Origin: Hirudinaria manillensis
Taxonomy: Eukaryota > Annelida > Clitellata > Hirudinida > Hirudinidae
Direction: 5' to 3'
NCBI GenBank assembly: GCA_034509925.1
Contig: CM067531.1
Location: 1,522,501-1,586,500 of the forward strand
DNA length: 64,000 bases
Positions 22,457 to 63,471 of this stretch are shown here, one piece after another. The notes beneath the pieces were generated by a model, which did no database searches, had not been told where the DNA came from, and saw only the letters and a program-made list of their open reading frames with translations. Within the stretch, counting starts at the first letter, position 1, and the number at the start of each line of letters is the position of its first letter. The translations under genes and the position numbers were made by a program.

Positions 22457-22807
22457 ATGCCATATTTCTTTATGATAGTTTTGTTTGGTCTAGTAAAGAG
22501 TACGATAGAAGAATGCACGGAGATTTCTTGGACAGACATGGACCTGACCTTTGCCGACAATCTGGGTGCCGTTCATCATCCTGGCATTACAGACCTAAAA
22601 AGTTGCAAGGAGCGTTGTGTGGAAAACAAAGATTGTTCGTCCATAGATTGGGTATTCGGGGAACAAAGACACGGCTGTTGGTTGCACAACTCTCCGCACG
22701 ATTCCCTGAAACTTTACGGGAACGACAGAGCGTCCCATCATGTCATTATTCGTACGAAAAAACCGGATCACGAATGTCCAGGCAAGGATGAGAATTATTT
22801 TCGTTAA
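22457..22807 (+). CDS. Receptor-array copy A: signal peptide plus single PAN/apple domain
   Basis: Single open frame of 116 residues. A hydrophobic leader (MPYFFMIVLFGLVKST) is followed at once by one PAN/apple-like domain with the family's six cysteines: ECTEISW, SCKERC, CSSIDW, GCWLHN and HECPGK. The SHHV block near the end is shared with every copy in the array. Unlike its neighbours it has no lectin-like exons and no splice donor where the others leave the PAN exon; it runs on to a stop six codons later. It therefore looks like a secreted PAN-only protein, or the surviving exon of a damaged receptor that happens to have a leader. It is the most diverged member and nearest to RPL4. PAN domains bind protein or carbohydrate; the ligand is unknown. 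Confidence 0.65.
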   Translation: MPYFFMIVLFGLVKSTIEECTEISWTDMDLTFADNLGAVHHPGITDLKSCKERCVENKDCSSIDWVFGEQRHGCWLHNSPHDSLKLYGNDRASHHVIIRTKKPDHECPGKDENYFR

Positions 22808-25309
22808 TCTAGAATATTTTTCATTTAAATGTTTCTTTTAAACAAAAAATATGTTTTCAAACTGCTTCAAAAGGGGACAAATCTGGTTATCCATCCCAAA
22901 TGACAAGTAGGTTGCTTGGTCATTACATATTTTTATATCTTTGTTGACTTTTCTTTACATGCTTATCATTGTTATTTATTTATTATTGCTTTTAAAATGG
23001 TGAATATTTTCAATTTTAGTAAGGAGTTCCTTTCAACTTCTAATGCAAATCACTATTATCTCAATCACGGCAGCGTGGATCGTGTTATTGTGATCACCGG
23101 TCGATGGTTCCTATCAATGGAGGTTAAATCCGTGGTTGATTCAAGAGGGACAACAGAGATGTTTTCAACAAATATATTATACAAAACTATTGGATTATGA
23201 TCAATTATGTTTCTTCATAGCTGCAGGCAAACCTACACACAATTGCCTGGTGATGATTATGTTTTCAGCAGGTCTAAGTGAAACTTGGTTATTGTCATTT
23301 TGTGGTTTTTTACATGCAATTAGTCAGCTATTATTGATAGTTTTTCTTTCGAACTTTAATTGCAATACAACTTTTTAAGAGTCCAACTGGTGAATAATGA
23401 TGTGATCGAGTGTCGGAAATGACCTTATTTGGCTTCATACTCCCAGGCTATAGTTGTTGACTTAAATAAACTTGTGTGATAATTAAATGTGTAATTTTTA
23501 AAGTAATCATACAAAATTATAAAAAGAAATATATAAGTTAGTGCAAGTAACTATTGGGCTTTAATAAGTAGTCATCTCTAAGTGCAGTATATTATATATT
23601 TTTCTCCTCTATAAAATAGAAAAAGAAGCCTTTCTGTCTTGTTCTGAGGAATGTTTGAGATGATCTGGCCTTGCCAATAACTTCAATTTAAGATAGCGCT
23701 TATTAAACTCTAAAAATACTCTGCTTTAAGTTCTGGTTAATATAAAGATCTCTCACTCAAATCCATCAGGTTATAATAATTATTTTTCATTTCGTTTCAA
23801 ATTATCGAAAAAGGGGAAAAGCTTAGCTTCACTCCTTTTTTTTGAGTCAATCTATTAATCGCTAAATCAAGAAAACAAAATTGAATAATTGAGGCTGATT
23901 ATTAAGAGACTCGCAGCCTTGATGAGACGCAAGCCATCGTTGGCACCGCTGACCCAAAAAGTTAATTAATTAAATAGATAAACCTGTCAAGAAGCAAAAG
24001 CAAAAAAAACAACAAAGCTATTAATTTGATATAGCGCGGATGAGAAACAATTTAACGGATTATTTAGACAATATGTACAACAATGCAAATGGTCCAGTTT
24101 ATGATTTAATAGATTACGGAATACCGGAGAATAGCCTTAGTCCATAACACGATATTTAAAAAAGTTTAAGGGTAGATCAGGCAAAAGATGGACTGAATTC
24201 ATGGGTGTGTCGGAGGAAATACGAATGGTTACTGTAGTTAGTGCTTATGGGGATGAGACCAAAAAATTTATCAGGGTCATCACGAGAACATAAAGAGGGC
24301 AGTTTGGAGACTATGACTTTGGTGGATATTAGGCAAGTTATGATTAGTGATAGATCGTATGAGATGAAACATTTTTATTTGTTTATATATTTGTGTTATT
24401 TCTAATATTACTTTAACTCAATTTTTTTTTCTCAAGGAGAATGGGTTTATTTTGTTAAGTTTATTACTTAACTGTTAACTTTCGGATCGTTAACCTGGGG
24501 TACATATGTGTCAACCTAAATTCTTAAAAGTCAGTTTACAGTTCAAATGTAAATTTTTCATTTTAAAAACAGATTTTCTGTACCAGTATGGGAACCATAC
24601 GAAAAGTATGGAAACCATTTCAGGAACAAATAATAATTTTTTTGACGAAATTTTAATTATGTGGTTGGTGATCATCATCTTAAGAAAATGTTTTTGCTTT
24701 TCAAATCAAAATCAATTAATTAAAGGGCACATTGTCTGTACCAGAATGGGAACCCGTCCCTTTTTCTACTGTGGAGGTTGGAAATTGAGGTCTAACTTCG
24801 CTTGAGGTCTGACATTTAAATATTTATATTTCAACAATTTTGCATTTAATGGATCTCTAAAAATAATATCGAGAAAATAAGGAATATATCAGAAAGAATA
24901 TGCAAAGATAATGGATATTATTCATTAATCATGGTAATCTATAAAGCCGAACTCATCACTGGTCACATTATTGTGAGCAGCGGTTTTTCCAAACACACGG
25001 AACAGGAACATCGAACTTTGTGCACATAAGAAATCAATAATTGTTAAGAATTGTTTATTTGATATATTGTTTATTTTAATTTGATGTAATGGGTAGATCA
25101 AAATTTAAAAAAAATAAAGTATATATGTCCTTAGGTGAAAGTTACGAGAAACCACTTTCCTAACCATGATAATATTTGGAATTTCCTGGAACATGTTCGG
25201 GTACAAAACTAAATTTCTTGAGTCTAACCAGTCATATGAGAATTCTTTATTTGGAATTTATTCTTAATTTTTTATTTGGAAGTTTTTATAACTTCACAAT
25301 AGTTTTAAT
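22808..25309. other. Spacer with an old segmental duplication
   Basis: The stretch 23210-23740 is related to 43530-44260 over several hundred bases: shared ATTGCCTGGT, TTTTCAGCA, TTGCAATACA and CTTGCCAATAA blocks in the same order. Around 24040-24370 short broken open frames (one reads MRNNLTDYLDNMYNNANGP) suggest a decayed coding insert that I cannot identify. No intact gene. Confidence 0.5.
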
Positions 25310-26972
25310 ATGTCTTGTGGACAAAACTTTGTGAATTTACTAATTTTGTATTTTATGCCCAACACATTTCCAGCAATAAGTGGGCAATATGCTTGGTGTG
25401 GTCCTTACGACACATTCTGTCTTTTCTCTTTATTGGACAAAACCAATTTATCAGAAGTTCAATTGAAATGCAGTGAAATTAAAAACGACAGTCGGCCCGT
25501 TGAATTAGGAGATGAGAGAGTTAAAGAGGTTTTTATTGAATTCATTAACAACCATTCCATCCACAACAGCATTCTTCTCCAAAGAGGTAAATGATATTTT
25601 AAAGGGCGATTTTAATAATGAAACTGAAAGCATCAGGCAACGCTAATAGCTCTCTTAAATTATTTTTTTTAAAATTTTAATTAGACTGTCAAAGTGTGGC
25701 ATCAGGCATAAAATGTTCTGAAGCTAAGAAGGACTTTGAAAATAAAACCTTGGATCCAGTGGTTTGCATGACAAGTAAGTTGCAATTAGACAAAAATAAC
25801 AGTTAAGATTGTGAAAATTGTTAGAACATCATGTTGCGATAATAAATTATTAATATTATAACTTAAAAGATGTTGCGTGAATGTTAACATCAAACTATAA
25901 ATTCAACAGATTGTCAAGCCAACTGGACCAAAATTGATAAAAAAGCTATGGACAATGAAAATATGACTCATCACCCCGGCATTAAAACAATCCAAGAATG
26001 CAAAACTTTGTGTGAAGTCAACATTTCCTGTTCATCAATCAATTGGTATCTAGAAAGAAATATGCGTGGTTGTTGGTTGAATAAATATCCTTACAATGCA
26101 TCAGGACTTTATGAAAACAGCAAAGCATCTCACCATGTTGTTGATAGAACAGTAAAAACAGTTGACAGATGCATCGGCAAGGGTAAGGACTGTTCTGTGA
26201 GAATTGAAATTCAAATTATAGGTTAAGATTATGTTAACTTCAATAATATCTATGGAAATGTTAGAAATTACAGAGTGAGAGTGTTTCTTTATCAAGAGTA
26301 ATTCATGTTCATTTAATGAACTTTCATTGAGCTTTGACTTGATTTAATTTTTATTTTAATTTAATATACATCATTTAAACAGCTAACAAGCATTACTCAG
26401 AAATCATTTGATAAAGGATGTTGAATTTTTATCTTTAATTTCTTTATTCAATTGTTTTCCATTAAGTAATTTCTATTCTAAATAAAACTCTATTTAGGTT
26501 TTGTGACTTTGCCTCCACACAAACCTGCATCAAATGAAATAAATATTGAAAACTTAGTTCGTAAGTTTTTAAAAAAAATAATTTAAGACTTAAAATAATA
26601 AAAATTAATCTCCATAAAACTTGTAGCATGGACAGTAATTCCCTTATTAATTGCTTCTTTGATTATTGTATCTTTTCTCTGTTGGAAGAGGTGAGGATAT
26701 CTTTTTATAAAGAAGACCTATTTTTTAATTATTTTATTTAATTATTTAATTTAAATGTTTTATAATTGGAAGTACTATAATTGCTAGGATGTTGGCCAAC
26801 TTGGTTAGGAAACAAAATCAAAAAAATGAGTGCAGAACTAAAAGAATCTGAGACTTTAGGCCCAACAGGATCCAAAACTATGAATGAGAGTAATTCAAGC
26901 AGAGCAGAAAAGGAACCAGTGAGATATGATGGTCCACTTGGAGACATTTATACATCTATTACCATGACTTGA
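25310..26972 (+). CDS. Receptor-array copy B: lectin-like/PAN single-pass receptor, open frame
   Basis: Six exons: 25310-25586, 25685-25774, 25910-26182, 26498-26560, 26627-26690 and 26831-26972, giving 302 residues. Leader, then AWCGPYDTFCLFS and KCSEIKNDSRPVELGDERV (lectin-like helix region), DPVVCMT at the end of exon 2, PAN exon (NCQANW, ECKTLC, CSSINW, GCWLNK, DRCIGK), stalk, and the helix VIPLLIASLIIVSFLCW. The tail ends GDIYTSITMT, one YxxI. The tail acceptor is not obvious: the nearest good AG (before GAAACAAAATC, 26810) gives an early stop. An AG 20 bp further on restores the conserved frame, and the same AG exists in copy D. Exon 1 matches the type-2 copies at 45-61 kb, while exons 2-6 are type 1, so this copy is chimeric. 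Confidence 0.72.
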
Positions 26973-27789
26973 ACATTCTCTAATCTGTTTGATTGATTTA
27001 TGTGTGCTAATAATTTGTCCGTTGATATTGTCCCTCAAATTTATGTTTTGAACATGTTTTGTATTGATCCAAGATGCTTTCATAGCATTTGAAAATGCTT
27101 ATGCATTTTTCCAACAGGAAATATTTTTTTTTAGGCAACAATTATGATACGCTTTTAGATGATATAATCAAGGATCTTGTTAATTATTATATTTTCACTG
27201 CTTAAGTATATAGGTATGTTTTCATGCTGATTTGAGGAATATCTTTATTAAGTTGTTTTTTTCTGGCAGCCTTCTTTATACAATTGAAAGTAGAATAAAT
27301 ATTTTTCACCATTTTAAACACATTTAATTGTCTTTGTTTTTCAAATACAAGTAAAGAAAATGACATAAAATGTTGTTTTAATTTCAGTTTAATAAACTAT
27401 AAGAAGTGACTTGTAGAGTGATATAATAATTTTTTATTTTTGGGCGTGATTCCAGAAATGATGCGGACCTATATTGAGTGAATTAAAATTTAAAGAAGCA
27501 AAAATGATTGGTTGCCCATCCGAGACAAAAATAGTGTCTTTTCAGGGCTTTTCCAAAGCAAAATGTTATTAAATTAAGATTTTTATTAAATATTTTGTCA
27601 GATTTATTATTATAATTAATAAATTATAACAATTAAAATAAAATATTTGAAATATAAATTACCTTCTTGATGAAGCGAACATGACATGTTCTCCATCACT
27701 AATGTCCTACTTATGGATTTCCCATACGTAATTGAGTAAACAACTACGATCTCTGAGTCGAAATGTTCATCTGAAATTTCTTTTTATTA

Positions 27790-28796: not shown

Positions 28797-28907
28797 ATTG
28801 AGATATGATGGTCCACTTGGAGGCATTTAAACATCTGTTGTTGATTTTAACTTTCTCTAATTTTTGGATTGATATATGTTTCCTAATAATTTGTCATTTG
28901 ATATTAT

Positions 28908-29836: not shown

Positions 29837-29841
29837 GATAT

Positions 29842-30122: not shown

Positions 30123-30509
30123 ATATTGTCCCTCTAATTTATGTTTTGAACATGTTTTATATTGATTCAAGATGCTTTCATAACATATGAAAGTGCTTAT
30201 CCATTTTTCCGATAGCAAATATTTTTTATCAGGCAGCAAGTATGAATTCCTGCAGATGTTATAATCAAGGGTCATTTTCATTACTTAATTTACTAATAAA
30301 TACGCGTGTTTGATAAGATGAATTATCAATTATGAATTTATTAAGTTAGTTTTTTTTCTGGCAACCTTCTTTGTATTATTGAAAGTGGAATAAATATTTT
30401 TCACCATTTTATAAACATTTACTGGCATCTATTAAAAAAAAAAAGAGAGTGACAAAAAAGTGCTATTTTACTTTTGTTTTAATAAACCATAATAAATGAC
30501 TTGTAGAGG

Positions 30510-31834: not shown

Positions 31835-33275
31835 ATGGATGAGAAATCGCTAGTTTTGATTTTTGTGTGCATATCTCCAGCAATAAACGGGCACTATGCT
31901 TGGTGTGGTCCTTACGATACATTCTGTCTTTTCTCTTCTTTGGGCGAAGTCCAGTTATCTGAAGCTCAAAAAGTTTGTAGTGACATAAAAAGCGACAGTT
32001 TGCCTGTTGTGCCAGGAGATGACAGAGTTAATAAGGTTGCCAAAGAATTCATACGCAACCATTCCATACACACCAACATTCTTCTTTCTTTCCTGCAAGA
32101 CGGTAAAGGGTATTTTAAAATATTTTTAAAAAGGTATCGTGTGGCATTGTTAACACGTCTCTTAAACTACATATTTGATCAGACCGTCAATGTGTGTTAT
32201 CAAACCTAAAAAGTGTTGAAGATAACGAGGACTTTCAAAATAAATCCATAGATCTAGTGATTTGCATGACAAGTAAGTTGCAATTAGACAAAAATTACAG
32301 TTAAGATTTTGAAAATTGTTAGAACATCATGTTGCGATAATAAATTATTAATATTATAACTTAAAAGATGTTGCATGAATATTCATTAACATCAAACTAT
32401 AAATTCAACAGATTGTCAAGCCAACTGGACCAAAATTGATAAAAAAGCTATGGATGTTGCAAATGCGATTCGAGAATCCAACATTAAAACAATCCAAGAA
32501 TGCAAAGCTATGTGCGAAGTCACCACTTCCTGTTCGTCAATTGATTGGTTTCATAGTGAAAATATGCATGGCTGTTGGTGGCACGAATATCCTTATGATG
32601 CAACGAAAGTTTATCAAAACAGCAAAGCATCTCACCATGTTGTTGATAGAACACTAAAAACAGTTGACAGATGCATTGGCAAGGGTAAGGACTGTTCTGT
32701 GAGAATTGAAATGCATATTATAGGTTAAGATTATGTTCACTTCAATAATATCTATGGAAATGTTAGAAATTACAGAGTGAAAGTGTTTCTTTATCGAGAG
32801 TGATTCATGGTCATTTATTGAACTTCCATTGAGCTTTGATTTGACTTAAATTTTAATTTAATATACATCATTTATACAGCTTTCTAGGCATTACTCAGAA
32901 ATCATTTGAAATAGGATCTTGAATTTTTATCTTTAATTTCTTGATTAAATTGTTTTCCATTATTCCAGTAATTTCTATTCAAAATAAATTCTGTTTAGGT
33001 TTTGCTTCTTTGCCTCCACTTGAATTTTCAGCAGATCCATGTCCAATAAATTTGCATGTCGCAAATATAATTTGTAAGTTCTTTTAAGAAATAATTTAAG
33101 ACTTAAAATAATAAAAATTAATGAATCTCTATAAAACTTGTAGCATGGATTTTAGTTGCCATCCTAACTGTTTCTTTGATTATTGTATCTATTCTCTATC
33201 GGAAGAAGTGAGGGTATAATTTCCAAAAAAGACCTATTTGTTAATTCTTTAATTTGGTTTTAAAGGAAACATTAA
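31835..33275 (+). CDS. Receptor-array copy C: lectin-like/PAN membrane protein without signalling tail
   Basis: Exons 31835-32102, 32183-32272, 32412-32684, 32999-33073 and 33144-33207 are all open and in phase. They encode leader MDEKSLVLIFVCISPAING, lectin-like region (AWCGPYDTFCLFSSLGEV), exon 2 ending DLVICMT, PAN exon (NCQANW, ECKAMC, CSSIDW, GCWWHE, DRCIGK), stalk and helix SWILVAILTVSLIIVSILY. The tail exon of its relatives is decayed at 33266-33330: using the acceptor at 33265 gives only a few residues before TAA at 33273, total about 259 residues. Exon 2 has lost the cysteine that begins this exon elsewhere (Arg instead). It could be a membrane-anchored decoy or a dying gene. The start was chosen because the identical ATG context is the only one in copy E. 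Confidence 0.65.
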
Positions 33276-38894: not shown

Positions 38895-40486
38895 ACGTTC
38901 CAAACGTGATGCTAGGTTTTGTTGCAGATATCACATTCGTGTCCTTATGAGATATTTTGTATTTTCTCTCTGTCGGACAAAACCAAATTATCAGAAGATA
39001 AAAAGGAATGCAGTGAAATCAAAAGCGACAGTCTGCCATTTATGCCAGGAGATGACAGAGTTAATGAGGTTGCTAAAGAATTCATTCGCAACCATTCCAT
39101 CCACAACAACATTTTTCATTCTCGCCTTCAAAGAGGTAACTGGTAATTGAAAGAGCAATTTTGATGTGATAACTAAAAATTGCAGGTGAAGTCAACAAAT
39201 ATCTTAAATTCAATTCAATTTTTAAATAAAATTAGTTACAACCTTTTACTTTAATCAGACTGTCGGACTATGGATTCAAAAATAAAATGTTTTGAAGCTA
39301 AGGACAACTTTGAAAATAAATCAGTTATACCATGTGATTTGCATGACAAGTAAGTTGTAATTAGACAAAAAGAACAGTTAAAATTGTGAATATTATTGGA
39401 ATGTCATATTCCTAGAATAAATTATAATATCATAATTTAAATGGTCAATGTAAAAAAAGTTATAAATTCAATAGGCTGTCAGGCCGACTGGACTGACAAA
39501 AATGGAACATCTTTGGACTATGCAAAATAATGATCATCAACCCAGCATTAAAACGATCCAAGAATGCAAAGCTATGTGTGAAGTCACCACTTCCTGTTCA
39601 TCAATTGATTGGTTTCATAGTGAAAATATGCATGGCTGTTGGTGGCACAAATATCCTTATGATGCAACAAAAGTTTATCAAAACAGCAAAGCATCTCATC
39701 ATGTTGTTGATAGAACGGTAAAAACAGTTGACAGATGCATTGGCAAGGGTAAGGACTGTTCTGTGAGAATTGAAATGATGTTTAAATTTTTTAAATTTCT
39801 TTATTAATATCTATGGAAATGTTAGAGATTATGGAGTGAAAGTGTTTGTTTATCAAGAGTGATTCATGGTCATTTATTGAACTTTAATTTGATTTGATTT
39901 AATTTTAATGTAATATACATCATTTACAGAGCTATCAGGCATTACTCAGAAATCATTTGATAAAGGATGTTGAATTTTTATCTTTAATTTCTTGGTTCAA
40001 TTGTTTTCCATTTTGTAATTTCTATTCTAAATAATACTCTGTTTAGGTTTTGTGACTTTGCCTCCAAACAAACCTGCATCAAATGAAATAAATATTGTAA
40101 ATTTAGTTTGTAAGTTCTTTTAAGAAATAATTTAAGATTTAAATTAACATAAATGAATCTCAGTAAAACTTGTAGCATGGACATTAATTCTCATCCTAAC
40201 TGCTTCTTTGATTATAGTATCTTTTCTTTATTGGAAGAGGTGAGGATATCATTTCTAAATAAGACCTACTTTTTATTTACTCAATTTAATTGTTTTATAA
40301 TTGGAAGTACTATAATTGTCAGGAAACAAAATAAAAAAAATAAGCTCAGAAATAAAAGATGCTAAGACTTTAGTCTCAACGGGATACCAAACTGTGAAAA
40401 AGAGTAATTCCAGCAAAGCAGAAAGGAAACCAGTGAGATATGGTGGTACGCTTGGAGATCTTTATACAACTGTTACCATGACTTGA
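38895..40486 (+). pseudogene. Receptor-array copy D: 5'-truncated, frameshifted receptor
   Basis: Exon 1 begins mid-domain: CPYEIFCIFSLSDKTKLSE follows unrelated DNA, so the leader and first cysteine are lost at the edge of the fold-back element. Exon 2 (39259-39350) has one extra base near its 3' end compared with copies B and C. Exon 3 (39475-39748) has a second indel giving an early stop, though the remainder (HQPSIKTIQECKAMCEVTT onward) is well preserved. The stalk (40048-40110), helix (40178-40241, LILILTASLIIVSFLYW) and tail (to TGA at 40484, ending GDLYTTVTMT) remain nearly intact. The damage looks recent. Confidence 0.8.
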
Positions 40487-47940: not shown

Positions 47941-49569
47941 ATGAAGAAACAATACAAAACTGTCGTTATTTTGTTCTTTATACATATTTGTATCACAACA
48001 AATGGATTGTACACGTGATGTAGTCCTTACGAAACATTCTGCTTATTCTCTCAAGGAAATGAAGTTAAGGTGTCCAAGTTATCGGAAACTCAATTGAAAT
48101 GCAGTGAAATTAAAAGCGACAGTTGGCCTGTTGAATTAGGTGATGAGAGAGTTAAAGAGGTTTTTATTGAATTCATTAACAACCATTCCATCTCCAATGT
48201 CATTCTCAACGCTTTCAATCGAAATGGAAACTGGTATTGGAAGACAAGCAACACCAGTGAGTTAAAAATGATTTAGTAACATTACAATTGAACTTCATTT
48301 ATTTTTCGATTTAATCACGTATTACAAAAGAATACACTTTTTAATAATCTTGTTGTTTTTTAAAAATTATTTTTATTATTTTGCGACGATTCTAAAAGAC
48401 ACAACAAATAATTTTTTCCATTTATGTTTTGAATAGCTGTATCAGAAAACTTTGGCTTTCGATTGAACGAAAATATATTGTTTTATAACAACTCTGAGCA
48501 CCAATCCGTTTATTCGGCTGTCTGCATGACATGTAAGTTCGTCATTTGGATCATTTGTATTCCTTTGCATTTGTGTTGCACTTAAATCGTTATGACCTTA
48601 TTTAGTTATGACCTTCGTTATCGCTAAGATAATGGATAACAGTAACTCAGATTCTTTCAGAATACTCGTAAATGTAATTGTAACTTATGCTATTTGTTGC
48701 GTTACATTAAGACTTTCGAAGTATTTAAATTATATCAGGTATCTTATAAATTACATTATTATTATGTCGTTTAATAAGTAACTTTATTTGGATTAACGAA
48801 TGATGTGGAATATATTAGATACAAATAAATTTAAATTCAGTTAAGCATTCCTATTAATTTAAATAGTAACAATTATTTATTTTACTTCCGCTAAACAGAT
48901 TGTGATGCTAGCTGGACAGACTTCAAAGAAAGTAAGATAACCAATACATTTGCTCATCATTTTCCCAACATTAAAACTCTTGATGAATGTAAAAAACATT
49001 GCGAGGCCAACAAGAACTGTTCATCAATTGATTGGGCGAATGCATTTCAATGGCATGGCTGTTGGATTCATGATTTTCCATATGATGCCTCGAAGATGGA
49101 ACCAGCAATTAACGTTTCTCATCATGTTATTAATCGATCAACAAAATCAGTTGATAGGTGTATTTATGAAGGTAAATTGATTGCAGGAGAAAAGCAATTT
49201 GTAGGTATTTATTTGTGGTCCATATTTATTAAAAATGTTTTTTTTAAATATTTCAAATAGATCCCCTAATAGGAAGAAATTGGTTGGAATCTATTTTCAT
49301 AGGTGTACAAAATTCTTTCTTTGCATAATAAAAATTACAAATAAATTATGATAAACAAATAAAGGATGACATTAATCGCGTCGAATATAATATAATATAA
49401 TATATAATTTTTTTATTTCAGGCCTGAATTTTATTCCACATTTGGTTGCAATTATAGTCATCCTCATCCTGGTACCATTCGTTGCTATTGTAATCTTTTG
49501 CCTGGTGTTAGTTGTTGTTACCCTGGATTTAGGACATTAGATAATAAGTATATTGCCATTGCTTTATAC

Positions 49570-49790
49570 TGTTGTAACCCGGGGTCTGATGAATTAATTA
49601 ACGTAAGGATATCTTTATTGTATTTAACTAATGGCAAATACGGCTGGACGATTTGGTCGATTGCTTGTCCCGACGGAACTGCCTAATGACTCGAATCGCT
49701 AGATACGACTTCGAAATAAAAGATTCTGAATATTAACTAAACTTAATTAATTAATTATTTAATTAATTAATTAATGTCAGGGATCCAACA
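49570..49790 (-). repeat. 3' LTR of the Ty3/gypsy element
   Basis: 221 bp, identical to 54832-55052. It contains a long TTAATTAA stretch near one end. Confidence 0.93.
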
Positions 49791-49792
49791 TT

Positions 49793-49805
49793 ACCCCCTC
49801 CTTAA
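49793..49805 (-). promoter_or_regulatory. Polypurine tract of the Ty3/gypsy element
   Basis: On the minus strand AAGGAGGGGG sits just inside the 3' LTR, the plus-strand primer position. The same tract is present at 34238-34248 in the related element. Confidence 0.8.
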
Positions 49806-52800
49806 ATCTGTTCGTCCCGAACAGGCTGTTCTGTTTCTCCGTGATATTTTGCTAATCGATTGCTGTGGACCACTTTCATTCTAGTCCTTGCTGACTTCTG
49901 TATGCGGTATACCACGTCGTTTATTTTCTTTATGATTCGGTATGGTCCTTCCCAATCTTTTTGTAACTTTGGCGACTTCCCTTTTCTTCGTTGGGGGTTG
50001 TATAGCCAGACTAGTTCATCTTCTTTAAAACTTACATCATTGGCTTGCCTATCGTATCTCGCTTTGGCTTGATCGCTATTAACACTTATATTTTTCCGGG
50101 CAACCTGATGTGTGTCGGCAAGTGTATTTCTTAGGCTTGAAACGTAGTCACATGCCGACTTAGGTTCTTCTGCTCTTCCGAACATCATATCGGCAGGAAG
50201 ACGAATCTCCCTCCCGAATGTCATTTTCGATGGACTGATTCCTGTCGTTTTATGCACGGCTGTCCGGTAGGCCATAAGGAAAAGTGGTAGGTATCTGTCC
50301 CAGTCATCTTGCTGTTCACTTACCATTTTTGACAAATACTGTTCCATGGTCCTATTAAATCTCTCGACCATACCGTCCGATTGCGGATGTAATGCAGTGG
50401 TTCTTGTCTTATGGATTCCAAGGTTTTCGCATAGCTCTTGAAATATTTTCGACTCGAAATTCCTTCCTTGGTCTGAATGTAACTCTAATGGCACCCCGAA
50501 TCGACTAATCCAATTATTTACGAGAGCATCAGCTACATTTTCCGCCTCCTGGTTTGGCAGTGCAAACGCTTCAGTCCATTTGGTGAAGTAATCGCTGATC
50601 ACTAAAATGTACCGATTTCCCTTCTTTGATGCAGGGAATGGTCCGGCAATATCCAAAGCTATTCTTTCAAAAGGTACTCCCACATTATAAGGTTGCATTA
50701 GACCTTTAGTCTTCTTTTGAGGTCCTTTACTGGTTGCGCAATTATTGCAATTCCTACACCACTCCTCAACGTCTTGTTTGTAGTGCAACCAGTAAAACCT
50801 CTCCCTCACCTTCCTGATGGTTTTATTCACTCCCAGGTGTCCACCTGAGGTTCCGTTATGGAATTCTTGTAACACCTCAGAGACGCAAGATCTCGGAAGT
50901 ACTATTTGAAGGTGATAGTCGGTGCCATCCTCTGTTTCCCACTTCCTATGTAGGAGTCCATTACTAATTCTCAAGGAATCCCACTGTGCCCAATAGGACT
51001 TAGTAACTTCTCCGTGCTCCGCTATCTGTTGCCAATCTGGTTTCACCCCGGCCTCCATCCACTGTAGTATGGGTGCAAGTGCTTCGTCTCTTAATTGTAG
51101 ATCTCGTAACCCGCTTTCCGTCCAGGGTTCGGGAGCCGTGATACGAATTTGTCGACATTCTTCGGTTTCCTGTTTTTTCTCTGCGTTGTTGCAGTGTCTG
51201 CAGTTAAGTGGACAAGGACGTCGTGATAGCGCATCAGCGTTGTTGTGTATTTGACCTCTCCTGTGTTCAATATTGAACTGAAAACCCTGTAGTTTTTCAA
51301 TCCACCTCGCCATCTGACCTTCTGGGTTTTTAAAGTTTAGCAGCCACCTCAGGGAGGCGTGATCCGTTCTTAGCAAAAACGGCTGGCCCAAAAGATATTT
51401 CTGGAAATGTTTCATGGATTCTACTGCTGCTAATAATTCTCTCCGGGTCACGCAATAGTTCCTTTCCGCTTTAGACAGTGAGCGGCTATAAAATGCTAGA
51501 ACTTTTTCTTCATTTTCAACTTGCTGGGAAAGAACTGCTCCGATTCCACAGTTACTGGCATCTGTATCGAGGATAAAAGGTAATCTGGGAATAGGATATG
51601 CCAGGATCGGTGCCGTTGTCATAGCCTCTTTCAGATTATCAAATGCTTTTTCACAGCTGTCGTTCCAGATAAATGGTTTGCCTTTTACAGTAAGCTCATG
51701 AAGGCTTTTTGCGATGTTTGAAAAGTTGGCAATAAATCGTCTGTAATAGGTACAAAGTCCTAAGAAGCTTTGAAGTTCCTGGATATTTTTGGGTACAGGC
51801 CAATTTTTTACTACCTCGACTTTATCTGGATCTGTACTAACACCTTCAGAAGACACGATATGGCCAAGGTATTTGACTTCTTTTTTAAAGAGTGAGCATT
51901 TCTTTGGACTCAGTTTCATGCCTGCCTCTCTAATCCTACTAAATACTTCTCGGAGGTTGTCTAAATGTTCTCCAAATGTTTTTCCGACAACAATTATGTC
52001 ATCCAAATATACTAGGCATACTTTCCAATTGAGTCCCCTTAGTATATGTTCCATTAATCTTTCAAACGTCGCTGGGGCATTGCATAGCCCGAACGGCATG
52101 ACAGTGAATTGCCATAATCCTTCACCTGTCGAGAAGGCCGTTTTTTCTCTATCGTCAGGATGTAACTCCACCTGCCAGTAACCACTTTTGAGATCTAACG
52201 TGGAAAAAATTTTTGATCCCGAGAGAGTGTCTAAAGTATCATCGATTCTAGGTAAGGGGTAGCTGTCCTTAAGTGTCATTTCGTTCAGCTTTCTATAGTC
52301 GACACAAAAACGAAGTGATCCATCTTTCTTTTTAACGAGTACCACTGGTGAGCTCCAGGGGCTATTTGACGGTTCAATAACCCCTTGGTCTTGCATTTCT
52401 TTTATCATTTCCTTGGCGTTTGCTCTTGTAGCTAACGGAAGTGGACGGGGGTTTTGTCGAATGGGTTTAGCACCGGCCGTATTTATTTGATGTTGCACGA
52501 GGTTAGTCCTACCCAAAGGGCTGTCTTGTTCAGCCATTATATCCTGAAATTCGCTAAGCAGCTTTTCCGCTTGTTGATAATCTTCTTTTTGTAGGGTTTT
52601 GTTTAAATCTTTCAGGAGATTGTCCACCAATGGTTTAGGCATGGCATCCCTTTTTATATGCTTATTTCCACTTCCATCTAATGTTAATATGTGTTCTAGG
52701 TTCCTGCAAAGTGCAATAGGTGTTCCTGCTTTGATCTGTTGTTCCTGGTCAGATAGATTCATTACCCTCAGTGGAACTCTGCCGGTGTTTAGCTTGACTA

Positions 52801-54751
52801 GTGCTCGTCCTATTAGTAGTCCTTGGCCAATGCCCGATTGATCTTCGACTGTTCCTATACCAAATTTTGTGTGGTCGCCCTCTAGCCCACCCCAAATTAA
52901 ACTTTCCGACTGTGCTGGGATGGTCTCGTCCTGCAATACTTTTACAAATGTGTCTTTAATTTCTGTACCCCCGTAATTTAAAGGAATCTCCATCGTCCCT
53001 TGTTGAAGGGTACCGCCCTTCATGTCAATGGAAATTCCATAGCGTCGCATGAAATCCAATCCCAGTATACATTCATCTGTTATATTGGCTATCATAAATT
53101 CCTGTTCGAATGACTTGCCTCCTAAATCCACTGTAATAGTTGTGGTTCCTTGAACTGGCACTAATTCTCCGGTGGCTGTTTTTAGCTTGTAGTTGTTGGT
53201 CGTTACTTTACTGTTTCCTGCCAACTTTGGTTGGACAATAGATGTAGATGCCCCTGTGTCTATTACAAGATTATATTCCTTCCCTCCAATTTTTCCTTTA
53301 ACCTCTAGTGATGATCCTTTTCCCAATGCCGTAACGTGAAAGACGAGTGGGGCATTTCGAGTTTGCTGAAACGATCTTTGCCCCTTAAAATCAGAAGCTT
53401 CAGGTTTTTCTGATTTATAGGGCTCTCTCCAGTACTGCTGTTTTTTGGAGAAGGTCGTTCTACATTCTCGGGCTAAATGGCCTGGCTTGTTACACCTGAA
53501 GCACCTTGGTCTTCTATCTATTTCCTGGAATCTTAAGTTTCTTGGGGGCTTGCTGAAGTCATTGATTTGTCGGGCTATTTTTTTAATCATCTCTCTGTCT
53601 TTGTCATTATCTTTATCTTTCTCCTTGCCTCTGTTTTCCTGAGCTTCAATTTTCTTTACATTCAAGCTTTTTTGGATTGAGGCTCTTGCCGCTTCCATGG
53701 AGATTGCAAACGCCAATGCTTCATGGCTGGCCTTTATTCCATGAATTTTTAGTGCCATTTTGGTTTCCGCATCCCTTATCCCATCAACGAAGGCGTCAGT
53801 TATAATGTTTTCAATGAAATCCGTTGACTGTCCTGGATGGGCTAAGTATGCGAGCCTTCTGACGTCAGCTTCTAATTCTTGGAGCGATTCGCCCTGTTTT
53901 TGCGTACGGTTTTTTAATTCGTTTTTATGTACTTCCAGCATGTGGCCATTCCCAAATCTTCTTTCCATTGCTTCTGCTATTTCTGAATAGGCTTTACAGT
54001 GGAGCATTGTTTGCAAAAGCTCGGCTGCCCTTCCTCGCAGTACCATTATCAGTTCTGTTGCTTTTTCCTCTTCGGTCCACTTGTTACGTTTAGCGGCAGT
54101 TTCAAACTGATGTCTGAACACTGCCCATGGCCCTTGTCCGTCGAATAATGGTGGTCTTGTCGTTTTCTCTCTTCCATATGTCTCTGTTTTCGATTCATTG
54201 TATTTTTTAAACTTCTCTATTTCCCTCCTCTGCTCTTCTTTTAGTGCATCTAATTCTGCTTTAACCTTTCTCAGGTCGGCCATCTCCTTGGATGATCTGA
54301 GGTTGGCTACGTCCGTTTTTACCTCTTCCATGGATGTCTGGAATTTGGCTGCATCAGTTCTTACCTCTTCCCGCAGAACATCCATGGATGTCTGGAATTT
54401 GGCTACGTCTGTCTTTACCTGCTCCCGTAAAACATCCATGGCTACCTGGAAGTTGGCTATATCGGATCTCATATCCGACCGCAAATCATTAATGTCGCAT
54501 TTCATATCTGACCGCAAAGCATTATTGTCGCATTTCATATCTGACCGCAAAGTATCAATGCTGCAAATCATGGCTTCCCAATCTTTTTGAACCCCAAATT
54601 CATACTCCGACGGATCGTGATTATTTTCCAAAAGCCATTCCTCGAGCCGTCCTTGTAGTTCGGCTTTTAGGCCAGTTGCATCCAGGCCTCGATTCCTTAG
54701 TTCTCGTCTCAAATTGGGGACGCGCAAATCTTCCAGTATCTTAGGTCCCAT
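49802..54751 (-). CDS. gag-pol: Ty3/gypsy gag-pol polyprotein, 1649 residues, uninterrupted
   Basis: Domains in order: SAP-like DNA-binding fold (about 8-42, LRRELRNRGLDATGLKAEL); iterated coiled coil with SDM-x-x-D and FQ-x-x-MD-x-L repeats (about 60-165); capsid-like region (200-370); CCHC knuckle CFRCNKPGHLAREC (about 415-428); aspartic protease DTGAST (about 497); reverse transcriptase with FCVDYRKLN and YLDDIIVV (about 914); RNase H with DTDAS (about 1060); integrase zinc domain (His-His-Cys-Cys, about 1297-1340); DDE core with DIAGPF (about 1364), HSDQG (about 1426) and VERF (about 1461), the last two acidic residues 35 apart; GPY/F-like end WEGPYRIIKK. The order PR-RT-RH-IN defines Ty3/gypsy. 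Gag and pol share one frame with no shift. No envelope. All catalytic residues are present. Confidence 0.95.
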   Translation of the reverse strand: MGPKILEDLRVPNLRRELRNRGLDATGLKAELQGRLEEWLLENNHDPSEYEFGVQKDWEAMICSIDTLRSDMKCDNNALRSDMKCDINDLRSDMRSDIANFQVAMDVLREQVKTDVAKFQTSMDVLREEVRTDAAKFQTSMEEVKTDVANLRSSKEMADLRKVKAELDALKEEQRREIEKFKKYNESKTETYGREKTTRPPLFDGQGPWAVFRHQFETAAKRNKWTEEEKATELIMVLRGRAAELLQTMLHCKAYSEIAEAMERRFGNGHMLEVHKNELKNRTQKQGESLQELEADVRRLAYLAHPGQSTDFIENIITDAFVDGIRDAETKMALKIHGIKASHEALAFAISMEAARASIQKSLNVKKIEAQENRGKEKDKDNDKDREMIKKIARQINDFSKPPRNLRFQEIDRRPRCFRCNKPGHLARECRTTFSKKQQYWREPYKSEKPEASDFKGQRSFQQTRNAPLVFHVTALGKGSSLEVKGKIGGKEYNLVIDTGASTSIVQPKLAGNSKVTTNNYKLKTATGELVPVQGTTTITVDLGGKSFEQEFMIANITDECILGLDFMRRYGISIDMKGGTLQQGTMEIPLNYGGTEIKDTFVKVLQDETIPAQSESLIWGGLEGDHTKFGIGTVEDQSGIGQGLLIGRALVKLNTGRVPLRVMNLSDQEQQIKAGTPIALCRNLEHILTLDGSGNKHIKRDAMPKPLVDNLLKDLNKTLQKEDYQQAEKLLSEFQDIMAEQDSPLGRTNLVQHQINTAGAKPIRQNPRPLPLATRANAKEMIKEMQDQGVIEPSNSPWSSPVVLVKKKDGSLRFCVDYRKLNEMTLKDSYPLPRIDDTLDTLSGSKIFSTLDLKSGYWQVELHPDDREKTAFSTGEGLWQFTVMPFGLCNAPATFERLMEHILRGLNWKVCLVYLDDIIVVGKTFGEHLDNLREVFSRIREAGMKLSPKKCSLFKKEVKYLGHIVSSEGVSTDPDKVEVVKNWPVPKNIQELQSFLGLCTYYRRFIANFSNIAKSLHELTVKGKPFIWNDSCEKAFDNLKEAMTTAPILAYPIPRLPFILDTDASNCGIGAVLSQQVENEEKVLAFYSRSLSKAERNYCVTRRELLAAVESMKHFQKYLLGQPFLLRTDHASLRWLLNFKNPEGQMARWIEKLQGFQFNIEHRRGQIHNNADALSRRPCPLNCRHCNNAEKKQETEECRQIRITAPEPWTESGLRDLQLRDEALAPILQWMEAGVKPDWQQIAEHGEVTKSYWAQWDSLRISNGLLHRKWETEDGTDYHLQIVLPRSCVSEVLQEFHNGTSGGHLGVNKTIRKVRERFYWLHYKQDVEEWCRNCNNCATSKGPQKKTKGLMQPYNVGVPFERIALDIAGPFPASKKGNRYILVISDYFTKWTEAFALPNQEAENVADALVNNWISRFGVPLELHSDQGRNFESKIFQELCENLGIHKTRTTALHPQSDGMVERFNRTMEQYLSKMVSEQQDDWDRYLPLFLMAYRTAVHKTTGISPSKMTFGREIRLPADMMFGRAEEPKSACDYVSSLRNTLADTHQVARKNISVNSDQAKARYDRQANDVSFKEDELVWLYNPQRRKGKSPKLQKDWEGPYRIIKKINDVVYRIQKSARTRMKVVHSNRLAKYHGETEQPVRDEQI

Positions 54752-54812
54752 TTCTGTCGTTTAAAACTCGCTGTTTTACCTCTAGTGAATCGATATCCCT
54801 TTACGACGTTAA

Positions 54813-54830
54813 ATCCCACTCCTGACACCA
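54813..54830 (-). promoter_or_regulatory. tRNA-Leu primer-binding site of the Ty3/gypsy element
   Basis: Plus-strand ATCCCACTCCTGACACCA next to the 5' LTR matches the 3' end of animal tRNA-Leu (acceptor stem TCCTGAC plus ACCA), so its complement is the minus-strand primer site. The related element has TCTTGACACCA at 35421-35431. Confidence 0.75.
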
Positions 54831-54831
54831 A

Positions 54832-55052
54832 TGTTGTAACCCGGGGTCTGATGAATTAATTAACGTAAGGATATCTTTATTGTATTTAACTAATGGCAAA
54901 TACGGCTGGACGATTTGGTCGATTGCTTGTCCCGACGGAACTGCCTAATGACTCGAATCGCTAGATACGACTTCGAAATAAAAGATTCTGAATATTAACT
55001 AAACTTAATTAATTAATTATTTAATTAATTAATTAATGTCAGGGATCCAACA
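54832..55052 (-). repeat. 5' LTR of the Ty3/gypsy element
   Basis: 221 bp, identical to 49570-49790; should carry the element's promoter. Confidence 0.93.
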
Positions 55053-55393
55053 ATACATTATATTGCAGTTAACTATGTTTATCAGATATTATCATCTTTC
55101 AAATGTACCATGTTAAATTGTTAAGACAAAGCAGTTCTTCAGTATTGATGGAAACTACAATTAAAAATAAAATTAAGCGCCAAATTTTTCTTTGTGACAG
55201 GAAGCCAGCAAGGGAACCACATGGACATTTATGTTCCACAGGAAGCGGCTGGTACGCCGAACTCAGACTAAATGACTTAAATCCGAGACAAACTTACACA
55301 TGTTTGGAGGAAGAGGTTAATGAATTAAGTCTCAGAGATCAAAGCTCAATGGAACAACTACACTCCAAGATTAACGCTACCAATAAACTTTGA

Positions 55394-56382: not shown

Positions 56383-58814
56383 ATGAAGAAACAATACAAA
56401 TCTGCCGCTATTTTGTTCTTTATGCATATTTGTTTCACAACAAATGGATTATACACGTGGTGTAGCCTTCACGAAACATTCTGCTTATTCTCTCAAGGAA
56501 ATGAAGTTAAGGTGCCCAATTTATCGGAAGCTCAATTGAAATGCAGTGAAATTAAAAACGACAGTTGGCCTGTTGAATTAGGAGATGAGAGAGTTAAAGA
56601 GGTTTTTATTGAATTCATTAACAACCATTCCATCTCCAATGTCATTCTCAACGCCTTAAATCGAAATGGAACCTGGTATTGGAAGACAAGCACAACCAGT
56701 GGGTCAATTCTTAAAAAATGATTTAGTAACTTTCGAGGTGGTTTACATACTTTAAGGAGTCAAAAATCTTCCGAATGTAATTTTCAAGAACATTTTGTTT
56801 AACAATCTTATTGTTTTATTTTTATCACTTCTATAAAGTTAATAAATAAAATCAATTGAATTTTTGTAATTGCTGGAATAGCTGTATCAAAAAACTTTGG
56901 ACTTCGGTCGAACCAAGACATTTTGTTTTATATCAACTATGAGCACCATACCATTTATTCGGTCGTCTGCATGACAAGTCAGTTAGATTTATATTTCATT
57001 GCATGTGTGATGAACTCATTGGCGTTTTAGTAACGTTTTAGTAAATCAATATCTCTCATAATACTTGTAAATATAATTTAACTTATAAATATAATGTATC
57101 TTTATTCTTTCTGGCTTTACATTAAGACTTTTGAATCATTTAAATTACATTTAAATTAAGTTATAGTTAATATGTATAATTAATTATGTGATAAGTAACT
57201 TTATTTGAATAAATAATGAATTGTCTGGACTATTGCCGTTAGTAGTTATAATTAAATTTAAATTCAGTTAATTTGTTAAAAATTAATTTAACCATTCAAA
57301 CTTAATTCGTAATTATTCTTTTAATTTCCGCTAAACAGATTGCCATGATAGTTGGACTGACTTCAAAGAAAGTGTAATGACTGATCATTTTGCACAATAT
57401 TTTCAAAACATTAAAACAATTGACGAATGCAAAAAACATTGCGAGGCCAGCATCACTTGCTCATCAATTGACTTTGTGAACACCAAGGAATGGCAAGGCT
57501 GTTGGACTCATGGGTATCCATATGATGCCTCAAAGATGGAGCCAGCAACTGACGTATCTCATCATGTTATTAATAGAACAACAAAATCAGTTGACAGGTG
57601 CATTTGTGAAGGTAAATTAATTGCAAGCAAAATATATTTTTCAATTGTTTATTAAAAATATCCATATTTGCTTTAAAAAATGTTTTTTTTTAAATATTTC
57701 AAATAGATCTCGTAATACGAAGAAATTTGTTTGAAACCGTTTATGAATCTATTTTCACAGGTGAGAAAAATGCTTTCTTTTTCGTAATATAAATTATGAA
57801 TAATTTATGATAAGCGAGTGAAGACTGACCAATAACTACGAAGATTTTAAATATTCAGGAATAATTACATAAACCTTTTTAAATACCCCACAGTTACTTA
57901 ATGTTGCCGTATCGATACCTGTGTTCTTCTCTTTGTGAAATTAAATAAATAATTAATGTTGTTCAATTTTAATGGCTATTTTAATTAATATGACAATATA
58001 CTATTTTATTATTTCAAATAATAATATAACAACTAATATTATTGTTAAAATAATTTTATGCAATATACTATTTTAAATTTAATTATTTTATTAATACAAA
58101 TAATAATATAATTAATGATTATTATTATTGTTAAAGTAATTTTATTTTATAATATACACATAATATTACATTATTTTTGTTAAAAGTTAAATGATGGTTT
58201 CACAAAACCTTTTGCAGATCTGAAGATTATCCCAGCTTTGGTTGCAATTACAGTCATCCTCATCCTGGTACCATTCGTTGCCATTGTAATCCTTTGCCTG
58301 GTGTTAGTTGTTGTAACCCTGGATTTAGGACATTAGATAATCTATATGCTGCCATTGTTTTTCGTATTACATTAAAGTTAATTACGTTTTTCTGCTACAA
58401 TTATTATCCTTTAAATGTTAAATTGAAATGTTAAGCCATAACAGTTCTTGAGTGTTTAGTTCTTCGTAGAAACTACAATTAAAAAAATTAAAAGCCAAAT
58501 TTTTCCTTTGTAACAGGAAGCTAGCACGTTGTTTTCGCCCCAGAAATGATGAAGAAACTTCTCAAGACATTAGGAGTTCCGACACGGACAGGGAATTAAA
58601 TCCAAGTGAACCACACGGACATTTGAATCCTACTGGAGAAGACCTTTACACCGAGATCGGACTAAATGACTTAAATCCAAGAGATCCACACAGATATTTG
58701 GATCTAACTGAAGACCAATACGAAGACGTCAATGAATTAAATCCAACGGACCCAATTGAACATCAATACGCCAAGCTTAACGTCAATTATGAACTCACTA
58801 CAGAGCAACTTTGA
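56383..58814 (+). CDS. Receptor-array copy H: intact lectin-like/PAN receptor with four-tyrosine tail
   Basis: Six exons: 56383-56698, 56882-56977, 57339-57611, 57707-57760, 58218-58302 and 58517-58814, giving 373 residues, all GT-AG, phases 1,1,1,1,2. Leader (1-22), lectin-like region (23-137: TWCSLHETFCLFSQGNE, QLKCSEIKNDSWPVELGDER, NGTWYW, TIYSVVCMT), PAN domain (138-228: NCHDSW, ECKKHC, TCSSID, GCWTHG, DRCICEG), stalk, helix IPALVAITVILILVPFVAIV (about 251-273) and a 100-residue tail. The tail carries YTEI, YLDL, YEDV and YAKL, built from two copies of a unit of about 24 residues with the motifs in each pair 12 residues apart, roughly ITAM-like spacing. The lectin-like region lacks WIGL, EPN and QPD, so calcium-dependent sugar binding is not expected. 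Type I membrane protein with predicted SH2-binding tail. Confidence 0.85.
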
Positions 58815-60846: not shown

Positions 60847-63471
60847 ATGAAACAATACGAAACCGTTATTGTTTTGTGTTTTATGCAGTTATACTTTACA
60901 ACAAATGGATTGCATACGTGGTGCAGTCCTTATCACACATTCTGTTTGTTCTCTGAAGGGAATGAAGTAAGAGTTTCCAGTTTATCGGAAGCTCAATTGA
61001 AATGCAGTGAAATTAAAAACGACAGTTGGCCTGTTGAATTAGGAGATGAAAGAGTTAAAGAGGTTTTTATTGAATTCATTAACAACCATTCCATCTCCAA
61101 TGTCATTCTCAACGCTTTCAATCGAAATGGAAACTGGTATTGGAAGACAAGCAACATCAGTGAGTTAAATATCATTTAGTAACTGATTTAAGTATTATTT
61201 TAATTAATACTAAATGGACTTCAATGTAAAAAAAAACGAAAGATGCCAAGGCAAACATTGCTAGACAAATAACACGTAAACATTGCGCTATCAAGAATTT
61301 GTGAATTCACAAAAGCCATGATAAATAGTTTTGAAATAATGTTTCCAGAGTCAAGGTGAAGCTGGGAATGGATGCATGATAGGGGCGAACAAATTTAAGA
61401 AAGGATGGATATTAATTAATTTTAAATTAATGAGCCATTAATTTATTTTCGCCACTTTAATTTGAAGAGGTGTCGGGTACCTCAGAAAGTCAGACAATGA
61501 AGAAGCTCAAATATTCCAAACGTCCCTACCTAAAAATTCAGTTGCACCATGAACTTGCCCTCTGCGAGCCCCGACTTATTTCAATATAATAGAACCAAAT
61601 TGTTTTATCATTTTTGTCTTTTTGCGACTGATTTAAAAAAAAAATCCCACAAATGATGTTATCCATTTATGTTTTGAATAGCTATATTGGAAAACTTTGG
61701 CCTTCGATCGAACGAGAATGTGCTGTTTTATAACAACTCTGAGTACCATTCTCTAAGCGTTTATTCGGCTGTCTGCATGACAGGTAAGTTCTTCATTTGA
61801 ATCATTTATATTTTTTTGTATCTCTATTAGTTACAATTAAAGTTAAATTATGTTAAATGTTCGTTTTACCGTTTTCGCTAAACAGGTTGTCAAGATAGTT
61901 GGACTGACTTCATGGGAAAGAGGCTAGTTGAACAAAATGCTCCGCATTTTCCCAACATTAAAACAATTGACGAATGCAAAAAACATTGCGATGCCAACAT
62001 CTCTTGTTCATCAATTGACTTGGCGAACACCAAGAAATGGCATGGCTGTTGGACTCATGGGTATCCATATGATGCATCAAAGATGGATTCAGCAACTGAC
62101 GTATCTCATCATGTTATTAATAGAACAACAAAATCAGTTGACAGGTGCATTGGTGAAGGTAAATTAATTGCAAGCAAAATGTATTTTGTAATTGTTTATT
62201 AAAAATATCTGCTAAAAAATTTTTTTTTAATATTTCAATTAGATCTCGCAATAAGAATAAATCGGTTTGAATCCGTTTCTGAATCTATTTTCACAGGTGA
62301 GAAAGTTTCCCTCATTTTATGATAAAGATCATGAATAAATTATGATAAACAAACGAAGACTGACCAATAAATACATTGATATTTGAATATTTGCATATTC
62401 AGAATTAATGACTCAAAAATACTCGACAATTATTTAATATTACTCCCTCGATATCCCGAACAGCGGCCTCAACGTACTTCTTTTTATGAAATAAAAATAA
62501 ATAAATTAATTAATTAACTAATTAATTAAGGCTTCCTTAAGGCTGGTCCTTTGAGTTTACCTGAATATTTATCATGCTTTGTGTATAATCGTTCGTGTTT
62601 ATTTAATTGTTTTTTTTTTGTGTAACTTCTAACACTAAATCTGTGGAGGATTGATTTTGTTCTGAATAAACTCAAAAAAAATTAAATAATTAAATAAAGT
62701 TAAATAATGGTTACATAAAATTTACAGACTGGAAGATTATTCCAATTTTGGTGGCAATAATAATCGTCCTGATTGTGTTAACATTCGTGGCCGCTGTAAT
62801 CCTTTGCCTGAAGTTAGTCGTTGTAACTCGGATTCTAGGAAATTAGTTAATTAGTTAAAATATAATTAAAATAAATTTAATTAATTAAAATATTGCCTCT
62901 GCATTATTCGGTGAATTGTCATTAATTAAGTTTAGCCTGGTTATTTAAGATCGTCCGTGGGTCCCATGCTAAAGCAATTGTTAGAAAATAGAAACTACAA
63001 TTATTAAAATTAAGTGACCAATTTCATTTTTGCGACAGGAAGCCAAGTGGTTTCCACTTAAAAAAAGGTAAAAAAAAGTCTCGAGATACTGGGAGTTACG
63101 ATATCGCTAGAGTTCTAAATTCACAGGAACCAGAAAGATATTTGGGTCCAAACGGGGATATATACACCAATCCCATCCCTGATGTCTTAAATCCTACAGG
63201 AATTTATTCTGATTTAAATGAAGACCAGTATTATAAGGCCAGACAAGTCGAATTAGATATAGAACCAGTAAGACATTTGGGCCCAACAGATGTTCAGTAC
63301 AGCGAGGTTAATCTTAAAGGATTCCATGTAAGAAAATCAAAGAAATATGTGAGTCAAATTGGAGACCAGATATATTCCGAGATCAAACTTGACAACTTAA
63401 GTACAAATTATTCAAGCCGATGTTTGGACCTGGAAGAACAACATTCAAAAGTCGGACTTGATATGATTTAA
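60847..63471 (+). CDS. Receptor-array copy I: intact lectin-like/PAN receptor with long multi-tyrosine tail
   Basis: Six exons: 60847-61159, 61682-61783, 61886-62158, 62243-62296, 62728-62812 and 63039-63471, giving 419 residues, in phase throughout. Leader (1-21), lectin-like region (22-138: TWCSPYHTFCLFSEGNE, QLKCSEIKNDSWPVELGDER, NGNWYW, SVYSAVCMT), PAN domain (139-229: GCQDSW, ECKKHC, SCSSID, GCWTHG, DRCIGEG), stalk, helix IPILVAIIIVLIVLTFVAAV (about 252-275), then a 144-residue tail. Tail tyrosine motifs in order include YTNP (a YxN site of the Grb2 type), YSDL, VQYSEV (fits the ITIM consensus) and YSEI. It is the longest tail in the array and unlike that of copy H except for the LGP/LNP-type spacers. 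A basic stretch follows the helix, as a stop-transfer signal. Confidence 0.85.

Follow-up and report, generated by a model that had tools for sequence, protein, structure and literature searches.

A stretch of 64,000 nucleotides from the leech Hirudinaria manillensis (C6:1522501-1586500, hereafter the window; contig C6 spans 11,463,318 bp) carries at positions 22457-63471 a plus-strand tandem array of genes built from a leader, lectin-like exons, a PAN exon, a membrane exon and a tail with YxxΦ motifs. We read these genes as a lineage-specific leech family whose products are type I signalling receptors of the cell surface, immune-type and mainly inhibitory, and put the probability of this reading at about 0.55. 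The product of each intact gene starts with a leader and an N-terminal domain of C-type-lectin-like type, followed by a PAN/apple domain, a single membrane helix with an uncharged core and a tail with several [ILV]-Y-x-[DE]-[LIV] motifs. The ectodomain would most likely bind ligands, either protein or glycan, that are carried by cells or microbes, and phosphorylation of the tail by a Src-type kinase would recruit SH2 proteins. New copies would arise by tandem duplication, and gene conversion would keep one part of the lectin domain alike in many copies, while exon 2, the PAN domain and the tail diverge. The low-divergence part, a 165-nt tract of exon 1, is newly found here.

Copies, gene structure and genomic distribution

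Nine copies, A to I, lie in the window, with nine PAN exons and eight lectin exons (Table 1). Two more are located just outside it (C6:1587554 and C6:1596013). The first-pass annotation, read from the raw sequence, had counted at least eleven copies or remnants in the window, a number that is corrected here to nine. The tandem plus-strand layout itself was borne out by exon searches and by the splicing of copies H and I, and the domain order proposed at that stage (leader, lectin-like region, PAN, transmembrane (TM) helix, tail) is the one found in both spliced genes. H and I are the only complete copies (2/9). Spliced by hand from the DNA, each has six open exons with GT..AG introns in phases 1-1-1-1-2. 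The leader shares exon 1 with the larger part of the lectin-like domain, whose last strands come from exon 2; the PAN domain is encoded by exon 3, a short stalk by exon 4, the membrane helix by exon 5 and the tail by exon 6. Copies B, C and E contain lectin, PAN and TM exons, with joins or tails unsettled. No lectin exon was found for copy A and no leader for copy D, and neither a TM exon nor a tail was found downstream of the PAN exon of copy F. Frequent pseudogenes had been noted at the outset, and copy G, with an in-frame TGA and a gypsy-type insertion, is broken. The element that split it arrived very recently, because its two 225-nt repeats are identical.

Searches of the animal's own genome covered a 148.4-Mb assembly of 23 contigs; the accessible text of the genome publication gives 148.59 Mb in 22 scaffolds with an N50 of 11.46 Mb, and 15,581 bp for the mitochondrial genome (PMC10671345). 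A six-frame search with the H protein (E<=0.01) returned at least 89 matches, 86 of them on C6, and 85 of these 86 fall into four clusters at 1.04-1.13, 1.34-1.35, 1.54-1.60 and 2.36-2.39 Mb, all counts being lower bounds. The family thus extends well beyond the window, with 50 lectin-exon matches (27, 6, 10 and 7 by cluster, in position order) and 40 PAN-exon matches across the four clusters at E<=1e-3, broken copies included, in the stretches fetched. A TM exon candidate follows downstream in 35 of the 50 lectin-exon copies, and the exon order is constant wherever it was modelled (at least 45 copies). A tree of 30 PAN exons groups the copies of cluster B together, and likewise those of cluster D, but splits both larger clusters; cluster labels change 6 times along the tree vs 15.1 times after shuffling, as expected of mainly local duplication.

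The TM candidates of clusters B and D came without a convincing tyrosine tail. Cluster D (C6:2358114-2386012) also holds lectin-PAN copies without a convincing TM exon, which are perhaps secreted forms. At another locus (L028:3910-4383, minus strand), the first intron of a copy is open in frame and lectin exons 1 and 2 form a single open reading frame (ORF); TM exon and tail were not found there.

The PAN/apple and lectin-like domains

Sequence and structure model together firmly indicate a PAN/apple fold for exon 3, as first proposed. Its six cysteines are invariant in all 30 aligned exons. PF00024 matches 14 of 16 PAN exons at E<=0.1; among four proteins, Pfam PAN_1 scores over the cut-off in copies A (exon 22457) and B (exon 25912) and below it in H and I. 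The AlphaFold2 model (AF2; predicted local distance difference test, pLDDT, 88.5) finds its best PDB match in leech anti-platelet protein (LAPP; probability 1.00, TM-score 0.67, E 0.0036, 2.4 Å over 81 columns), with no PDB match at E<=0.001. Saratin is among the weak PAN profile matches (E 0.37).

For the N-terminal domain, a C-type-lectin-like fold is moderately supported by profile and predicted structure. When the lectin profile was compared with PDB sequences (E<=10), 15 of 16 matches were C-type-lectin-like (best E 0.0096), including KLRB1 (E 0.36) and killer cell lectin-like receptor 8 (E 0.46). The same profile finds four ORFs of linked lectin genes at E 1.2e-6 to 3.9e-5 (E for one 10-kb locus alone), and at three of these places Pfam calls Lectin_C above its cut-off. 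Foldseek matches of the predicted structure, classed by title, were C-type-lectin-like in 31 of 37 cases, and a second look at them (VIA rows) gave 49/50 by title, Ly49 and NKR-P1 structures included. C34 and C126 are invariant in 16/16 aligned rows and may form the pair that closes the domain from helix 1 to the last strand. By Pfam the signal is weak: Lectin_C is not listed for H or I, and of ten spliced domains two match, both below the cut-off (E 0.0045 and 0.0067). Both of these weak matches come from cluster D. The "degenerate C-type-lectin-like region" of the first-pass annotation is supported by profile and, moderately, by structure prediction, and weakly by Pfam. The domain seems to have lost the features of the usual sugar site.

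The linked lectin genes lie at C6:1006001-1016000 (L040), adjoining the 1.04-1.13 Mb cluster, and were found by the family profile. There, tandem C-type lectin genes precede TM stretches and tails that contain YVSL, YISL and YEAL. The lectin exon ends at the same place as in the array (a shared intron position), and TM stretches, YxxΦ tails and tandem order are likewise shared. In contrast to the array, the lectin domain is more canonical (Pfam over cut-off at three places), and no PAN exon was recognised (the best match to PAN has E 0.25). When one of these genes served as query, nine places matched, every one in the 0.26-1.02 Mb stretch of C6.

Membrane helices and tyrosine-based tails

The predicted tails are rich in YxxΦ motifs. 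In a set of 24 tails, chosen using tyrosine motifs, we counted 51 YxxΦ vs 17.2 after letter shuffling, with at least one in each tail (24/24). Strict immunoreceptor tyrosine-based inhibitory motifs (ITIMs; [ILVS]xYxx[ILV]) occur in 9/24 of these tails (11 motifs vs 4.85 shuffled, a number reached in 13/2000 shuffles), a GxxGDxY motif also in 9/24, and the spacing of immunoreceptor tyrosine-based activation motifs (ITAMs) in four. The first YxxΦ count would mislead if taken alone, because shuffles in which tyrosine is scored already give 38.5 motifs (maximum 53), compared with 57 for the tyrosine-scored choice of tails. The count was repeated with the tails of 35 copies picked without regard to tyrosine and 200 shuffles that keep neighbouring-base frequencies. 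These contain 47 YxxΦ vs 16.1+-4.6 shuffled (maximum 27 in 200), and 25/35 tails have a motif vs 12.5 shuffled; G-x-x-G-[DEQ]-x-Y-x-x-[VI] is present in seven vs none. The YxxI/L/V tails noted at the outset are thus enriched over shuffled controls even under a tyrosine-blind choice.

By their residues, the flanks of the motifs are of the phosphotyrosine type: [ILV] stands at -1 in 25/51, [DE] at +2 in 22/51 and K or R at +2 in two, although the tails are selected and related, so that flank p values are too small. A charged residue lies in the core of one of the 20 membrane helices listed, near the helix edge, and basic residues follow most of these helices, not those of G, H and I. Strict ITIMs in 9/24 selected tails together with the uncharged helices suggest a mostly inhibitory output. 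Activating paired receptors have a charged residue in the membrane helix. We rejected this class for the leech family on the charge count (1/20 helices listed), and as 19/20 helices lack a charged core residue, there is no sign of adaptor-dependent activating partners.

YxxΦ is also the consensus of AP-2 sorting signals, and it is present in every selected tail, in a set whose selection used the motif. An unlikely alternative is that of endocytic or scavenger receptors, among which lectin and PAN domains are common; their cargo in the gut or coelom would be glycoproteins, haem carriers or microbes. However, up to four motifs per tail, and flanks with frequent acid at +2, rare K or R and frequent [ILV] at -1, fit the phosphotyrosine pattern more than sorting, and the fast tandem turnover would be unusual for housekeeping uptake. 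We favour signalling over AP-2 sorting because the motifs are multiple and acidic-flanked.

Improbable, in our view, is a family of membrane relatives of salivary anti-haemostatic proteins, the array being an adaptation to blood feeding. LAPP, saratin and the salivary C-type lectins come from the same animal group, and the first two have the same PAN fold; LAPP is the best structural match of the PAN model and saratin a weak profile match. The available portions of PMC7191736 and PMC7303139 count PAN and C-type lectin proteins among the salivary or anticoagulant-related products of leeches. A secreted inhibitor would need neither membrane helix nor tail, whereas the array differs from these salivary and anticoagulant-related proteins in that TM exon candidates are found in most lectin-exon copies, many with a tyrosine-motif tail.

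A low-divergence tract in exon 1

The 165-nt tract is nearly identical in 11 copies, five in the 1.04-1.13 Mb cluster and six in the window's cluster (four inside the window). Its mean identity is 0.958 within clusters (25 pairs) and equally 0.958 between these clusters, which lie 0.45-0.52 Mb apart (30 pairs, range 0.897-0.994). Nucleotide identity among these copies is 45-51% in the leaders and 56% in the PAN exons, and exon 2 is 34.5% identical at the protein level. Fourfold-site differences in ten-codon windows of the tract amount to 0-0.16 (first window 0.27) vs 0.55 in PAN. A genome search with the tract gave 16 places, all in C6 receptor genes, and 12 of these match at 93-99%. Another 17 copies form a second group with a low-divergence stretch of their own, nearer the start of exon 1 (fourfold difference 0.06-0.21 vs 0.58 in 15 PAN exons). 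Gene conversion is the most likely cause of the identity, with moderate support from these comparisons.

Within-pair permutation of exon-1 sites was significant (p<0.01) in 53/55 pairs, including 30/30 between clusters. The case for conversion is carried by the silent-site contrast, because the permutation shows uneven divergence, which is also possible through constraint. Related sequences (P0001, P0002 and P0011-P0013; tract compared over 41 residues) partly fit concerted evolution. The leader of P0001 is 69% identical to that of copy A1_1118202 (next best 27%) and its tract 85% identical to the same copy, whose tract averages 95.7% to its own paralogues. The same pattern is seen in P0002 (leader 58%, tract 80%) and in P0011 (leader 56% to H, tract 90%), and the relatives' own tracts are less uniform (87-93%). 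The constraint-compatible permutation result weighs against our interpretation, as do P0013, with almost no contrast (95% vs 96.7%), and P0012, with no clear leader partner.

These data bear on a further alternative, which we consider more improbable still: that most of the array is decaying tandem repeat with few functional genes, the tract being kept alike by sequence selection and not by conversion. The small share of complete copies in the window and the broken copy G would fit, and so would the PAN exons, where dN (nonsynonymous) is close to or above dS (synonymous divergence) in the youngest pairs. The four youngest give dN/dS values of 0.183/0.121, 0.109/0.128, 0.148/0.144 and 0.144/0.160, with dN>dS in 3/15 pairs, which hints at relaxed or diversifying selection, neither proven. 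Yet frames are open in many copies of the 1.04-1.13 Mb cluster, which also share their splice phases and have tails rich in motifs, and selection on the tract does not sit well with its low fourfold difference, nor with identity that is no higher within than between clusters.

Comparison with known receptor systems

The order lectin-PAN-TM-tail belongs to no named family among the protein, PDB and literature matches listed, in line with what had been proposed from the sequence, and no leech receptor family of this kind was found described in the literature searched. We regard the pattern as one of immune recognition because of tandem growth, decayed copies, diverse tails and phosphotyrosine-type motifs, which occur at non-random frequency. 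In this part the earlier proposal is supported. Its self/non-self or allorecognition part is unsupported by the measurements made here, and the animal is a solitary leech.

Killer cell lectin-like receptors (KLRs: Ly49, NKG2, NKR-P1) of natural killer (NK) cells resemble the leech family as tandem C-type-lectin-like receptors without the usual sugar site and with ITIM-type tails, and KLR proteins are among the lectin profile and structure matches given above. Mammalian NK lectin receptors are type II proteins with a C-terminal lectin domain and, to our knowledge, have no PAN domain, whereas the leech proteins are predicted to be type I, with the lectin first and the PAN domain beside the membrane. 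Membership in the KLR family of the NK complex is ruled out by the leader, by the lectin preceding PAN, TM and tail, and by the PAN domain, so the "NK-receptor-like" label survives as an analogy of clustered lectin receptors with ITIM-type tails and not as a statement of family.

Hydractinia Alr and Botryllus Fester/BHF likewise encode type I receptors with signalling tails, in gene clusters that show turnover and contain pseudogenes. They belong to colonial animals and have Ig-like or short consensus repeat (SCR) domains, and we know of no lectin-PAN order among them; this receptor type was rejected, as spliced H and I have no Ig-like or SCR Pfam match. Allorecognition or gamete compatibility is the function to which we give least credence, since the similar layout (type I receptors that are clustered, diverge and have tyrosine tails) is set against leeches being solitary animals without fusion and a homogenised tract, the reverse of what hyperdiversity would give in this part of the gene. 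In a spiralian, clustered and diverging single-pass genes are known from Biomphalaria, where GRC and PTC2 are linked to parasite resistance (accessible text of PMC7494358 and PMC4361660). The words "lectin" and "tyrosine" are absent from the main text of PMC7494358.

On a tentative view, possible though doubtful, the proximal 2.4 Mb of the chromosome could be an independently evolved annelid counterpart of the natural killer gene complex. It would combine two linked lectin receptor classes (lectin-only and lectin-PAN), inhibitory-type tails and ongoing long-range gene conversion that keeps the lectin helix half near-identical in many paralogues for one shared interface (a common partner or free heterodimer mixing), while exon 2, PAN and tails diversify. 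If this is true, it would suggest a second origin, in a spiralian, of the NK-complex design with its clustered lectin receptors and diversified tails. Invertebrate immunity has long been studied in leeches, and the tract offers a clean natural test in which paralogous receptors share one ectodomain part and diverge in the rest.

Feature coordinates and further observations

Table 1. Features of the array, in window positions (~, approximate limits)
Feature	Position	Strand	Details
Copy A	22457..22786	+	leader and PAN domain in single exon; open frame; PAN_1 22.0 bits, cut-off 21.4
Copy B	25322..26969	+	lectin exon ~25322-25591; exon 2 25687-25773; PAN exon 25912-26181 (PAN_1 24.3 bits)
Copy B, 3' part	TM exon ~26627-26689; tail 26831-26969	+	tail with GPLGDIYTSI; joins unsettled
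Copy C	31835..33206	+	lectin exon 31835-32128; exon 2 32185-32271; PAN exon 32414-32683; TM exon ~33144-33206; tail unsettled
Copy D	38943..40483	+	lectin exon 38943-39143; PAN exon 39523-39747; TM exon ~40164-40238; tail 40345-40483 (GTLGDLYTTV)
Copy E	41330..42718	+	lectin exon 41330-41623; exon 2 41681-41785; PAN exon 41928-42197; TM exon ~42653-42718; tail unsettled
Copy F	45272..46238	+	lectin exon with shared tract 45272-45553; exon 2 45705-45788; PAN exon 45981-46238
Copy G (broken)	47941..55390	+	lectin exon with in-frame TGA 47941-48255; exon 2 48439-48531; PAN exon 48901-49170
Copy G, 3' part	TM exon 49422-49505; tail remnant 55214-55390	+	tail remnant past gypsy-type insertion
Ty3/gypsy-type long terminal repeat (LTR) retrotransposon	49570..55056	-	within copy G, between TM exon and tail; intact 1652-aa ORF; 225-nt end repeats 100% identical
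Copy H, intact, 373 aa	56383..58814	+	exons 56383-56698, 56882-56977, 57339-57611, 57707-57760, 58218-58302, 58517-58814
Copy H tail motifs	58620..58814	+	YTEI, YLDL, YEDV, YAKL; 4 YxxΦ
Copy I, intact, 419 aa	60847..63471	+	exons 60847-61159, 61682-61783, 61886-62158, 62243-62296, 62728-62812, 63039-63471
Shared conversion-like tract, exon 1 of copy I, 165 nt	60982..61146	+	also in copies F, G and H; in B over 128 nt (93%); weaker in D and E
Copy I tail motifs	63136..63471	+	YSDL, YSEV, YSEI and GPNGDIYTNPI; 3 YxxΦ

The array is flanked in the window by conserved genes, of which one exon each was tested: glycogen debranching enzyme (2347-2691, minus strand) and ribosomal protein L4 (20413-20817, plus strand). 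A long T/G-rich array of short-unit repeats at 12100-12740 is open in several frames through composition only.

Elsewhere in the genome, five equal-scoring C-type lectin matches at about 6.4-kb spacing (C10:6552689-6578678) form a young tandem array. The mitochondrial contig of 15,581 bp, which is partly masked, is best read with table 5 (AGA Ser, ATA Met, TGA Trp), and its gene order is that of annelids. A COX1 match at C9:3026446-3027786 (L041) scores the same as the mitochondrial one and reflects either mitochondrial DNA recently inserted into the nuclear genome or the assembly itself. One Hirudin-family match is located on C4.

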